This document shows positions 51,187 to 58,834 of a DNA stretch of 64,000 bases, in pieces. This DNA comes from Nodosilinea sp. E11 (GTDB taxonomy: Bacteria > Cyanobacteriota > Cyanobacteriia > Phormidesmidales > Phormidesmidaceae): positions 2,040,001-2,104,000 of the forward strand of contig NZ_CP136520.1 of the NCBI RefSeq assembly GCF_032813545.1, read 5' to 3'. Positions within the stretch are counted from its first letter, which is position 1, and each line of letters opens with the position of its first letter. Made by a program: the position numbers and the translations under genes. The notes beneath the pieces are model-generated. The model made no database searches and was not told where the DNA came from. It saw only the letters and a program-made list of their open reading frames with translations.

Positions 51187-52077
51187 ATGAAGCCTAAGCA
51201 ACTGATCCTTTTAGGGCTGCCTGGGGTGGGGGTAAACACCCAGGCAGCGGCCCTCGCAAACCAGTGGCAGGTGCCCCATGTGGTTATGGGAGATCTCGTG
51301 CGTGGGGCGATCGCCGCCGAGACAGCCATCGGCCTTGAGGCCCGCACCTATGTAGACTCAGGCGAGCTGGTACCCGATGTATTGGCCATGAAGCTAATCC
51401 GCAAGCGGTTTGAGCAGCCTGACACCATGCTCAAAGGCTGGGTGCTAGAGGGGTTTCCGCGCACGCTGGCCCAGGCTCAGGCGTTTGATCAGTGGTGGGC
51501 AGCGGTGGGGCAGCCACCAGCGACGGTGGCCTATCTCAAAGCACCAACGGAGTTTTTGATCATCCGAGTCTTAAACGAAAGCAGCGAAAAGCCGCCAATT
51601 TCGGCCATCCGAGACCGCTTAGAGAGCTCTCAGCAGTCGTTAGAGCCGTTGATTGAGTACTATCAGCAGCGATCGCAGCTCGCCACGATCAACGCCAGCC
51701 TGTCGTTTGCGGAGGTCGCCAGCGCCTTGGCCCAGCTGGGCGAAGAAGACACCGGTGCCGCTAAATTGATTCGTGATGAGGCCGAACTCGATGCGTTGCT
51801 AGCCAGTGAACCTTTGCTGGTGGTCGATTGTATGGCGTCTTGGTGCGGCTCTTGCAAACAGGTGATGCCGTCGATCAATAAACTAGCTGAGGCCTATGAC
51901 GATTCGGTCATGGTTAGAAAGATTGACTTTGATGCCAATCGGCAAATTACCAAACGATTTGGGCTGAAGGGCATTCCGGCGGTAATGTTCTTTAAAGACG
52001 GTGAACGGTGTGAGACCCTAACCGGCATCAAGTCTTACCAGGAATACAACGATGCGGTAAATCGCCTGTTGGCCTGA
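51187..52077 (+). CDS. Adenylate kinase-like/thioredoxin fusion protein
   Basis: The 296-residue protein joins two domains. Residues 1-185 resemble adenylate kinase: a P-loop-like GLPGVGVNTQAA (10-21), GDLVRGAIAAETAIGLEARTYVDSGELVPDVLAMKLI, LEGFPRTLAQAQAFD (88-101) and RLESSQQSLEPLIEYYQQ. The P-loop is abnormal: GKGT is GVNT, so the catalytic Lys is absent, and the LID domain seems short. Residues about 205-296 are a thioredoxin with active site WCGSC (219-223) and cis-Pro at 264 in GLKGIPAVMFF. The kinase half probably binds nucleotides without standard catalysis, or is a regulator, while the thioredoxin half reduces disulfides. It starts at the ATG at 51187 and stands alone. Confidence 0.9.
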   Translation: MKPKQLILLGLPGVGVNTQAAALANQWQVPHVVMGDLVRGAIAAETAIGLEARTYVDSGELVPDVLAMKLIRKRFEQPDTMLKGWVLEGFPRTLAQAQAFDQWWAAVGQPPATVAYLKAPTEFLIIRVLNESSEKPPISAIRDRLESSQQSLEPLIEYYQQRSQLATINASLSFAEVASALAQLGEEDTGAAKLIRDEAELDALLASEPLLVVDCMASWCGSCKQVMPSINKLAEAYDDSVMVRKIDFDANRQITKRFGLKGIPAVMFFKDGERCETLTGIKSYQEYNDAVNRLLA

Positions 52078-52166: not shown

Positions 52167-53411
52167 CTAGAGCGAGGTTGATGATTCCTGTTCTGTGGTT
52201 TCGGCGACGATCGCTGGCTCAACAGCGGGCGGGTGGGTGGGCAAAATCACCGTAAAGGTTGAACCTTGCCCAGGTTGCGATGACACGGCAATTTCGCCCT
52301 GCATCAAATTGACAAGCTGAGCCACGATCGCTAGGCCTAGGCCGGTGCCCTGATCGGTCTCAGCGGTAGAACTAGAGCTGACCCGATAGTAGGGCTCAAA
52401 AATATAGTTCTGCTCGGCCTGAGCCATGCCAATGCCGCTGTCGCGCACCGTAATGGACCAGCGATTATCGCTGAGGGTCTCTGCTGCGATCGCCACATAG
52501 CCGCTCTCGGTGTAGCGAATCGCATTGCTCAGCAGGTTAGTAAGGATTTGCTGGAGGCGCAAGGGATCGGTTTGCACGGTGGGGGGAATGCGATCGCACG
52601 CTACCCTTAACTCCAATCCCTTATTTCGCGCTAGGGGTTCAACAATTTCAATCACCGACCGAATCAGCTCTTGCGGCTCAATCGTCCCGATTTTGAGCTT
52701 AATTTGGCCATCGCTCTTTTGCAGTTGGAGCGTGTCGTTAATCAGCCGCAGCAATAGCCGCCCACTGCGCAACACCCGCTCAATACTTTCGAGATGGACA
52801 TAGGAATCTTTAATTTCGGCCTGCTGCTGCTGGCGCAGAAACAGGTCGGCATAGCCAATAATCGACGTTAGCGGCGTTTTGAGCTCGTGGGTTAGCTTTG
52901 ACATATTGTCGTGGCTAGCCCGCACCAAACGGGTGAGTTCTTGGTTGGTCAGCTGCATTTGGGCTCTGAGCTGGTCTAGCTCTTCCATGCGACTTTGGGT
53001 ATAGCTGTCAAAGCAACGGGCGATCGCCTCGTCAATCACCGTATCAATTAACCGAATGGCCCACAGCACATCCTTGGGCGCGGCCTGCACCAGGTCGGCC
53101 TCTAGCTCTGAGAAAACAACCGATCGCAGCAGACGATATTCCCGCGCAATTTCTGCCGGTTCAAACCCCTGCTCAGCCCGAATTAGACCATGCTCCAGGC
53201 TAGCCTCATCAATGATTTCAAAGTTTTCGAGCTCACTATCGGCCAACATGGCAGCCAGCGACTCTAGCACCCTGGGCAAGCTATCGCGCACCGCTTTGAA
53301 GGTGAGTTCGTTGGTGGCCTCAATCTGCTGATCGTCAAAGACGGCATTAATCCATAGCTCAATAATTCTGTCGCGCTTTTGATCCAAAATGGTGCTGAAA
53401 TCCATTTTCAT
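52167..53411 (-). CDS. Sensor histidine kinase with RsbRD-type N-terminal domain
   Basis: The 414-residue kinase has no membrane helix. Residues about 5-145 resemble the RsbRD N-terminal (RsbR/globin-like helical) sensor domain (ILDQKRDRIIELWI, AEIAREYRLLRSVVF, DTVIDEAIARCFDSYT). A short coiled coil follows (142-170). The HisKA domain has the phospho-acceptor His 175 in KLTHELKTPLTSIIGYADL. The HATPase domain has N-box TNLLSNAIRYTESG, G1 VRDSGIGMAQ and G2 GTGLGLAIVAQL. No response regulator gene is near, so its partner is unknown. The signal sensed by the N-domain is also unknown. Confidence 0.93.
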   Translation of the reverse strand: MKMDFSTILDQKRDRIIELWINAVFDDQQIEATNELTFKAVRDSLPRVLESLAAMLADSELENFEIIDEASLEHGLIRAEQGFEPAEIAREYRLLRSVVFSELEADLVQAAPKDVLWAIRLIDTVIDEAIARCFDSYTQSRMEELDQLRAQMQLTNQELTRLVRASHDNMSKLTHELKTPLTSIIGYADLFLRQQQQAEIKDSYVHLESIERVLRSGRLLLRLINDTLQLQKSDGQIKLKIGTIEPQELIRSVIEIVEPLARNKGLELRVACDRIPPTVQTDPLRLQQILTNLLSNAIRYTESGYVAIAAETLSDNRWSITVRDSGIGMAQAEQNYIFEPYYRVSSSSTAETDQGTGLGLAIVAQLVNLMQGEIAVSSQPGQGSTFTVILPTHPPAVEPAIVAETTEQESSTSL

Positions 53412-54925: not shown

Positions 54926-55333
54926 AGGAGGTGGTTAATCGAGATTGATTTAATCAGTCTGGCCGATCGAGCTTAGGAGCTTTCTAGAAAAGAAGCTTCC
55001 CGCAATATCCGGAGACTGTAGCCACCGTAGGTGGGCACTGCCCACCATGAGGGAGAAAGTTTTCCAAAAATCGCCCTAGTAGGCCCGCTTTAATTAAGAA
55101 CTGCATTTGTAGACAATCGGCACTGCCATTCATAAAAGAAAAGGTTGCCGATCTGCATCCCTCTAAGGGGTAGGAGATAGCCAGACAGTAGCCTATCCAA
55201 CCAGCCAGGCAGCAGAATAGGCCCTACAAACGAGGCTTTGAGCAGATCTTAAGCCCGCGATCGCACCGCCGCTCTTACCTTAGGACGATGATGAAGTAGA
55301 CAATTTTCGCTAGCGTGATGGCGGACATTGCGT
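54926..55333. other. Repeat-bearing gap between malQ and the TreS fusion gene
   Basis: The 408-base divergent gap contains the repeat block described at 54972-55080 and then about 250 bases without recognised elements. The promoters of both genes should be here. A GCGATCGCACC HIP1-like site is at 55258. Confidence 0.4.
54972..55080 (-). repeat. Isolated copy of the family 1 internal block (copy D)
   Basis: Read on the minus strand this ~109-bp region (CTAGGGCGATTTTTGG, ACTTTCTCCCTCATGG, GTGGGCAGTGCCCACC, TACGGTGGCTACAGTC, TTTCTAGAAAGCTCCTAAG) matches the interior of repeat copy C, but lacks that element's TATAGCC ends. It shows the block can exist independently of the outer element. Confidence 0.75.
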
Positions 55334-58300
55334 ATGGCTGGACGAGTGATTTTGAAGAATGATCCCCTGTGGTTTAAGAATGCCATCATCTACGAAGTGC
55401 CAGTGCGGGCCTTTGCCGACAGCAACAGCGATGGCATTGGCGACTTCCGTGGGCTCACCGGCAAACTGGATTATCTTCAAGACCTTGGGGTAACGGCGAT
55501 TTGGCTGCTGCCCTTTTTTCCGTCACCCCTGCGCGACGATGGCTACGACATTGCCGACTATATGGATGTCAACCCCATCTATGGAACATTAGACGACTTC
55601 AAAGAGCTGCTGACTGCGGCCCACCAGCGGGGAATTCGCGTCATCATCGAGCTGATTGTCAACCACACATCCGATCAGCACCCCTGGTTTCAACGCGCCC
55701 GGCGATCGCCCAAGGGCAGTCCCGAGCGCGATTTTTATGTCTGGAGCGACACCTACGAAAAATACCAGGAAGCTCGGATCATTTTCCAAGATTTTGAAAC
55801 CTCCAACTGGACCTGGGATTCGGTAGCCAATGCCTACTTTTGGCACCGCTTTTACTCTCACCAGCCCGATTTAAACTACGACAATCCGGCGGTGCAGCAG
55901 GCGGTGTTTGACGTTCTAGACTTTTGGCTGGAGATGGGGGTCGATGGCCTGCGCATGGATGCCGTGCCCTACCTGTATGAGCGCGAGGGCACCAACTGCG
56001 AAAACTTGCCCGAAACCCACGCATTTCTAAAACGGCTGCGCAAGCATGTAGACGAAAAGTTTCCCAACCGCATGCTGCTGGCCGAGGCCAACCAGTGGCC
56101 CGAGGATGCCGCCGCCTACTACGGTGATGGCGACGAATGCCACATGAATTTTCACTTTCCCCTCATGCCCCGGCTGTTCATGGCCCTGCGCATGGAGGAT
56201 AGCTTTCCGATCGCAGACATCTTGCAGCAAACCCCAGCAATTCCTGACAACTGCCAGTGGGGTCTGTTTTTGCGCAACCACGACGAGCTAACGCTAGAAA
56301 TGGTCACCGATGAAGACCGCGATTTTATGTATCGGGTCTATGCCCAAGACCCCGAAATGCGGGTGAACTTGGGCATTCGGCGGCGGTTAGCGCCACTGCT
56401 GGGCAACGATCGCCGCCAGATTGAGCTGCTCAACAGTCTGCTGCTGTCGCTGCCCGGCACCCCTGTGCTCTACTACGGCGACGAAATCGGCATGGGCGAC
56501 AACGTCTACGTGGGCGATCGCAATGGGGTGCGCACCCCCATGCAATGGAGCTTTGACCGCAATGCGGGCTTTAGCAACGCCAGCCCCCAGCGGCTCTACT
56601 TGCCTTTAATTGTCGATGCCGAATACCACTACGCCACGGTCAACGTTGAGGCCCAGCGGGCCAACCCCAGCTCACTGCTCAACGCTACCAAGCGGTTGAT
56701 TGCCGTACGCAACCATTTCCCGGCCCTGGGCCTGGGCGACTTTCAAATTTTGCATCCCGACAATCGTAAGGTACTGGCCTTTACCCGGACCTACGAAGAC
56801 GAGCACATTCTGGTGGTCGCCAACTTGTCGCGCTTTGTGCAGACCGTCGAGCTAGAGCTATCGGCGCTGAAGGGCTGGGTGCCGGTAGAAATTTTTGGTC
56901 GCACCGAGTTTCCGCCCATTGACGAGGAGCCCTACTTCCTCAGCATTGGAGCCTACGCGGTGTATTGGTTTATGCTGAAGCCGCAGACGGTGTCGGTCGC
57001 AGCAGCGCAACCCCAAGCCGATCTGCCTACCCTGGCCCTCGATGGGGCCTTGTCTGAGGCCTTTACGACCTCGCAGCTGACCCAGCGGCGCAGTTTTGTG
57101 CAGAGTCTAGAGAACCTGCTTCCCCTTTACCTAACTCGCCACCGCTGGTTTGGCGGCAGAACGCGAACGGTGCAAACCACTCGCCTAATTGAGGCGATCG
57201 CCATTCCCTACGGTGATAGGCAGGCCCAGATGGTGGAACTGCACGTCGATTACATTGAGGGCAACCCGCATACCTATGTGATGTTCTTGGCGGTAGCCGA
57301 GGGTGAGCGGGCGCTGCACCTGCTGTCTGAAGCGCCGCAGTCGGTGGTGGCCCGGCTCAAGCAGGTGAATAGCGACGGGGTAGCGGTACTGTTTGATGCG
57401 ATCGCCGACAAAGCCTTCCTCAGCACTCTGCTAGCGGGCATGGCCCAAAACCGAGTTTTCCAGAATGCCGCTGGCACTCTGGCAGCCAGCACTACGGCCC
57501 TATTTAGCGAGCTGATCAGCAGTGACACTGCCGACTCGCTCAACTACGGGAGCAACGGCGATCTGCCGCTTGAGCCGTCGTTGCTGCGCGGGTCCCACAA
57601 CAACATGTCGATCGCCTACGCCCAACCCGGCAGTGTCGCCGCTGAAAACCGCTTAATTCTCAAGCTGTTTCAAAAAGTCGAGGAAGGCCAGCATCCTGAC
57701 ATTGAAGTGCGTCGCTTTTTAGATCAGCACCAAAAATTTGCCAATGTGCCTTCGATCGCAGGCACACTGACCTACCATCGTGCCTCGGCAGAACCGATTA
57801 CCATTGGCCTGCTGCAAGAGTTTATTCCCGATACCCGCATTGCCTGGGACTACACCCTCGACCATTTGCGCGACTACTTCGACCTCGTCGTGATGGACCA
57901 GTCGAACATTGCCGAAGCGCCCATGCCCAGTGGTTCACCCGTCGCGCTCAAGCCAGCCGAGGCCAGCCCCGACGGCGATACTCTGACCGAGGCATTTTTC
58001 CCAATTCCCTCCTGCCCACTGCCCTCGGTGCCGTCGCAAATTCCGGCCTGTAAGGCCATTAACAGCTATCTGGCCAACATGCAGCTCTTGGGGCAGCGCA
58101 CCGCTGAATTTCACATTGCCCTGGCGGTTGATGTCGACACGCCATCCTTTGCCCCAGAACCATTTACCTCGCTTTACCAGCGATCGATCTACCAGCACAG
58201 CCGCAACCTAACTGGGCAGGTGTTTCTGCTGTTAAAAAATCGTCTGGGTGCGTTTCCCCCCGAGACGCGATCGCTGGCGACGGCGGTGTTAGACCAGCAA

Positions 58301-58834
58301 GAGGCCTGCTTGCAGCGATTTCAGCTCGTGCTCAACCAAAAAATTACGGCGCGACGCATTCGCTGCCACGGCGATTACCATCTGGGGCAGGTGCTCTACA
58401 CCGGCAAAGACTTTTTTATCATCGACTTGGAGGGTGACCCCGCCCGCAGTCTCAACGAGCGCCGCATGAAGCGATCGCCCCTGCGCGATGTGGCGGGCAT
58501 GCTGCAATCGTTTTACTACGCGCTTCACACAGCCCTAGATAGCGAAATGGAAGCCGGCATGAGCCAGCCTGAGCAGCGGCAGCAAATGCAGCAATGGGCC
58601 GAGTTTTGGTATCGCTGGGTCAGCACCACCTTTATTCAGGCCTATCTGTTCACCGCTACCCGCGACAGCTTTCTGCCCCAGAGTCAGCAGGAGCTAGAGG
58701 TACTGCTGAACAACTACATGATCGAGCGTGCCATTCACGACCTGGGCCGCAAGCTCAACAATCAGTCTTCAAAGGTCACGATTCCGCTGCGCCGCATTCT
58801 TCAGCTTTTGGAGGAAAACGCGCCTAGCGATTGA
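55334..58834 (+). CDS. treS: Trehalose synthase-maltokinase fusion (TreS-Mak)
   Basis: The bifunctional protein of about 1166 residues interconverts maltose and trehalose and phosphorylates maltose. The first half (about 1-555) is the GH13 trehalose synthase: [19 protein letters not shown], the nucleophile in [18 protein letters not shown], the acid/base in [11 protein letters not shown] and the third acid in [12 protein letters not shown]. The second half is maltokinase: [20 protein letters not shown], then the kinase motifs [14 protein letters not shown] and [31 protein letters not shown]. Near 860-900 a Pro/Ser-rich linker ([19 protein letters not shown]) interrupts the maltokinase. The ATG at 55334 is used; a TTG two codons earlier is possible. 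Maltose-1-phosphate feeds the GlgE route, but no glgE lies in the window. Confidence 0.94.

Follow-up and report, generated by a model that had tools for sequence, protein, structure and literature searches.

A question of current interest is how, in cyanobacteria, the light-driven redox signal carried by thioredoxins is integrated with the energy signal given by AMP, ADP and ATP. Thioredoxins are proteins that switch other proteins through reduction, and a thioredoxin joined to a catalytically dead adenylate kinase (Adk) fold would constitute a directly testable redox-energy link. The nearest conceptual precedent, by analogy, comes from animals: NME8 and NME9 (TXNDC3/TXNDC6) are thioredoxin-NDP kinase fusions whose kinase domains lack crucial residues (PMC2777172). 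In plants, CBSX1 and CBSX2 were proposed as adenylate-binding regulators of thioredoxin, but in a later study three target enzymes were unaffected in the presence of AMP, and the effect on thioredoxin is disputed (PMC7921703). Cyanobacteria also possess a thioredoxin found only in this group, TrxC, which has an altered active site (WCGLC) and showed no activity when assayed with insulin or FBPase (PMC6262485).

We analyzed a stretch of 64,000 nucleotides (the window) from the genome of Nodosilinea sp. E11 (NZ_CP136520.1, positions 2,040,001 to 2,104,000). An intact open reading frame of 296 amino acids with an ATG start occupies positions 51187–52077 on the forward strand, and the opposite strand carries no open frame through this interval. 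The product comprises a short adenylate kinase domain without a long LID (residues 1–184; 51187–51738), a short conserved linker (residues 185–199; 51739–51783) and a thioredoxin domain (residues 200–296; 51784–52074). The Pfam ADK profile matched residues 8–163 (E-value of 4e-35; 121.5 bits against a gathering score of 26.8), and the Pfam Thioredoxin profile matched residues 201–287 (E-value of 8e-21; 74.5 bits). The protein falls below the NCBIfam equivalog cut-offs, with a PRK02496 score of 162.8 against a cut-off of 262. The reading frame and the Pfam matches thus agree exactly with the initial annotation, which had described a kinase fold with GLPGVGVNT and GFPRT motifs followed by a WCGSC thioredoxin. 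The fusion differs from NME8/NME9 in carrying an adenylate kinase instead of an NDP kinase, in the reverse domain order and in its occurrence outside animals, and from CBSX1/CBSX2 in having an Adk fold instead of CBS domains.

An AlphaFold2 model built from a 25-row alignment reached a mean pLDDT of 87.5 and a pTM of 0.67. Both domains were mostly confident (the kinase domain mostly above 85), with a dip around residues 181–190 near the linker; the relative placement of the two domains is uncertain because of the pTM value. A Foldseek search with the model ranked adenylate kinases first, with TM-scores, calculated by target, of about 0.6–0.8, and the matches listed were adenylate kinases and UMP-CMP kinases. 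The N-terminal half is thus predicted to fold as an adenylate kinase, in agreement with the Pfam match.

To describe the kinase half, we built an alignment of 51 distinct fusion proteins and 32 stand-alone cyanobacterial Adks. Residue retention was counted on 49 fusions, two sequences without a readable P-loop being left out. E. coli residue numbers were assigned from motif order (in RGRxDD, the first arginine was taken as R123 and the second as R156), and the functional roles of the numbered residues are those established for adenylate kinases. The P-loop lysine was present in all 32 stand-alone enzymes and in none of the 49 fusions, where Lys13 is replaced by Val (39), Leu (6), Ala (2) or Gly (2); in the degenerate P-loop of the window protein (GLPGVGVNT, residues 10–18; 51214–51240), Val16 occupies this position. 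The neighboring Gly14 and Thr15 were retained in only 2% and 4% of the fusions, respectively. The loss of the catalytic lysine that the initial annotation had seen in a single protein therefore extends to the whole family, and no orthologue retained the GKGT motif that would have marked this copy as a simple mutation; the particular GVNT sequence, however, varies among the fusions, so that the conserved trait is the lysine loss alone. The residue directly after the lost lysine (residue 17 in the window protein) is Lys or Arg in 29 of the 49 fusions (GVKA, GVRA), and the other 20, including the window protein with Asn17, have no basic residue there.

The LID was similarly affected, with R123 retained in 4%, R156 in 0%, D158 in 12% and D159 in 0% of the fusions. 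The collapsed LID segment of the window protein (residues 127–144; 51565–51618), recognized by the motif order R...RGRxDD...R, retains R127 and R144 as equivalents of R119 and R167 and has lost the equivalents of R123, R156, D158 and D159. Across the family, Arg119 was kept in 100% and Arg167 in 84% of the fusions. On the NMP side, retention was 96% for Gly85, 100% for Phe86 and Pro87, 88% for Arg88 and 98% for Gln92, while the average across the 51 positions invariant in the stand-alone enzymes was 68%. In the window protein, the corresponding GFPRT motif spans residues 89–93 (51451–51465), with R92 equivalent to Arg88 and Q96 to Gln92. Six residues (R74, D79, F90, P91, R127 and Y159) were invariant in all 49 fusions. 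The AMP site has nevertheless not been left untouched, judging from the alignment: Thr31 was lost in 96% (retained in 4%) and Arg36 in 37% (retained in 63%) of the fusions. Three fusions (L025, L111 and L113) have deletions in the kinase half or lack the P-loop strand.

Compared with the bacterial and cyanobacterial Adk (PF00406, PRK02496-like), the fusion thus shares the fold, GFPRT and the equivalents of Q92, R119 and R167, but lacks the Lys, Gly and Thr of the P-loop and the Arg and Asp residues of the LID, and is joined to a thioredoxin. This pattern indicates that the phosphate-transfer side has been dismantled while the NMP side is mostly, though not fully, kept, and it supports the view that the kinase half cannot perform normal Lys-dependent phosphoryl transfer. 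It is compatible with nucleotide sensing and energy-redox coupling, as the initial annotation had proposed, without constituting proof, and the retention of GFP and Q92 may serve folding alone.

In the thioredoxin half, D214 (the buried Asp), W219, C220, C223, P228 and P264 (the cis-Pro) were invariant among the fusions. The active site of the window protein (residues 219–223; 51841–51855) conforms to WCxxC and reads WCGSC, differing both from the canonical WCGPC and from the WCGL/V/IC signature of TrxC. A TrxC-like WCGLC gene (L067) is present in the same genome as a separate, unfused and distant sequence, and an origin of the fusion from TrxC was therefore rejected. Among the 51 fusions, the motif was WCGSC in 40, WCGPC in 9 and WCGAC in 2. 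WCGPC was found in five early-branching fusions, and WCGSC replaced it later; WCGPC also occurs in L018, L019 and L090. The WCGSC reported by the initial annotation is thus prevalent without being ancestral. In Staphylococcus aureus, the substitutions P31S and P31T of the active-site proline yield a more oxidizing thioredoxin, as cited in PMC6262485, and by analogy the redox potential of most family members may be shifted by the Pro-to-Ser change. The thioredoxin half most likely still performs thiol-disulfide exchange.

A scan of named genomes recovered 25 relatives of the complete fusion, with identities of 52–87%, in Nodosilinea, Leptolyngbya, Adonisia, Phormidesmis, Halomicronema and similar filamentous cyanobacteria. 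Whole-genome searches detected fusion genes in 39 of the 65 genomes from the family/order to which the window belongs and in 2 genomes of one other family, and nowhere else in a class-wide sample of ~390 genomes. The fusion is conserved among these relatives, a check suggested by the initial annotation. Of the 46 family genomes with a completeness of 95% or more, 33 carried it and 13 lacked it, and its distribution is patchy even within the genus (18 of 28), which indicates that the gene is dispensable rather than essential. Nearly every copy had an open reading frame. Median dN/dS values (NG86), calculated from nine close relatives, were 0.115 in the kinase half, 0.070 in the thioredoxin half, 0.080 in a neighboring-gene control and, in a small sample, 0.043 in the 15-residue linker. 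Purifying selection thus acts on the kinase half, which is maintained less strictly than the thioredoxin. The same genome encodes a canonical Adk with GPPGAGKGT (G000:C7:4388136) as well as several ordinary thioredoxins, so the fusion represents an extra, specialized copy. Our search of the open-access literature found no description of a cyanobacterial Adk-Trx fusion, in line with the earlier remark that a fusion of this kind with an inactive kinase was not known as characterized. The family represents a real, conserved and apparently undescribed pseudoenzyme-thioredoxin fusion.

Adk-Trx fusions with the same domain order were also encountered in Gammaproteobacteria (L027, a Legionellaceae MAG, 1235–2149; L032, 5001–5915). 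These proteins differ in having an intact GKGT, a long LID and a WCAPC active site, share about 28% identity with the cyanobacterial family and belong to a different Adk clade, and we infer an independent fusion event. In Legionella adelaidensis (L150, 2998–4030), an adk and a thioredoxin gene are adjacent but unfused, with 10 bp between them. The joining of Adk and Trx thus probably happened at least twice.

Besides the fusion, four family genomes (G060, G012, G007 and G006) contain a separate cluster (L099, L100, L101 and L102), in which adk2, with its GKGT intact, is accompanied by genes for a 2Fe-2S ferredoxin, a thioredoxin with WCGPC, a small protein resembling a Zn ribbon and proteins with CBS domains. 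Single CBS-pair proteins adjoin trx in the cluster, and a small recombinase-like gene adjoins most of its copies. A rearranged version was found in G364 (L103), an adk2-ferredoxin-trx-CBS arrangement in a Crocosphaera MAG (L026), and an adk-like gene (GKST) with trx and CBS genes but no ferredoxin, among transposases, on the Nodularia spumigena plasmid pUHCC0039a (L149). The cluster thus recurs among scattered cyanobacteria, in one case on a plasmid, and may be a mobile energy-redox module. The initial annotation had considered that separate adjacent genes with no functional link would undermine its reading; separate genes do exist, but as members of a conserved cluster that also includes ferredoxin and CBS genes, an arrangement that favors a functional link.

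In phylogenetic trees, all fusions formed one clade (support 100/100). The kinase half, whose stem is long (0.88 changes per site), grouped with the cluster Adk2 (99/92; 96/88 in a reduced set), and its grouping with the main Adk of the genome (Adk1, L061) was rejected (AU p of 0.031); an origin of the kinase half from cluster adk2 is thus well supported by the trees. The thioredoxin half grouped with the cluster thioredoxin (94/93). Its solo relatives, including one in the same genome (G000:C7:2245350), share 53–55% identity with it, and a grouping with solo thioredoxins was not rejected (AU p of 0.083), so that the cluster trx is the favored, though not decisive, source. Relative to the WCGPC thioredoxins of both kinds, the fusion carries an N-terminal pseudo-Adk and mostly WCGSC. 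Given the long kinase stem and the absence of the lysine from every fusion, the loss of this residue most simply preceded the diversification of the family. The ferredoxin that lies between adk2 and trx in the cluster is absent from the fusion; it was either deleted, or the fusion arose from a different arrangement. The family also offers a clean example of how a pseudoenzyme arises, with intact neighboring genes, the fused state and the lost residues all visible in living relatives.

The explanation that we prefer as a whole, while giving it slightly less than an even chance, is that adk2 and a thioredoxin of the cluster type fused once, in the ancestor of the cyanobacterial family, and that the kinase half then became a pseudoenzyme, losing phosphate transfer with the P-loop Lys and the LID Arg and Asp. 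The thioredoxin half would most likely have kept thiol-disulfide exchange, its potential being shifted in most members by the Pro-to-Ser change. The kinase half would serve as a regulatory and docking module, probably binding AMP or another NMP in the retained pocket, and this binding would alter how accessible the thioredoxin is or which targets it selects. The sequences show the fusion, its conservation, the lost catalytic residues, the retention of most NMP-side residues and the purifying selection, and the trees favor the origin from the cluster genes; the binding of an NMP, the activity of the thioredoxin and a coupling of the two are inferred. A narrower and tentative version, which we consider rather unlikely as stated, is an energy-charge-gated thioredoxin, in which the pseudo-kinase would bind AMP but not turn it over and would control, by allostery, how active its own thioredoxin is or which targets it acts on; if true, a single cyanobacterial protein would connect adenylate status with thiol redox regulation.

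The closest competitor, perhaps half as probable as its negation, treats the kinase half purely as a scaffold that binds proteins and has no nucleotide ligand, and that docks the thioredoxin on targets or dimerizes. Many pseudoenzymes act as scaffolds, the ATP side is clearly gone, T31 and R36 are eroded, and the purifying selection on the kinase half would suit such a role. The AMP-contact residues R88 and Q92 nevertheless remain at 88–98% while the average invariant position drops to 68%, and the related cluster carries genes for CBS domains, a family known to bind adenylates; both points speak for the coupling idea. A decaying kinase passenger attached to a thioredoxin that alone matters is improbable: the faster evolution of the kinase half, its long stem and the damaged members described above would fit decay, but a dN/dS far below 1, the six invariant residues and the open frame in nearly all copies speak against it. 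Still less probable is a kinase half that remains enzymatic by other means, for example with a P-loop Lys or Arg one position on replacing Lys13. Position 14 is basic in 29 of the 49 fusions, which would permit this, but 20 fusions, including the window protein, lack it, and the LID Arg and Asp are lost as well. A sequencing error, chance or a local mutation of an ordinary Adk in a single strain is ruled out by conservation across the 51 distinct homologues, the lysine being missing from 49 of 49 proteins and a separate canonical Adk with GKGT being present in the same genome.

Near the fusion gene, we found no Rfam match to an RNA element or riboswitch and no match to a sigma-70-like promoter. 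The genes for ycf66, a small membrane protein, yggT and accC were considered as partners and rejected, this neighborhood being kept in close relatives only and lost in all deeper orthologues. Directly downstream, a histidine kinase with an RsbRD N-terminal domain is encoded on the reverse strand (52167–53411) and is not a conserved neighbor. Further along the window, positions 55328–58834 encode a 1168-aa protein in which a trehalose synthase-like amylase is fused to a maltokinase-like C-terminal part.
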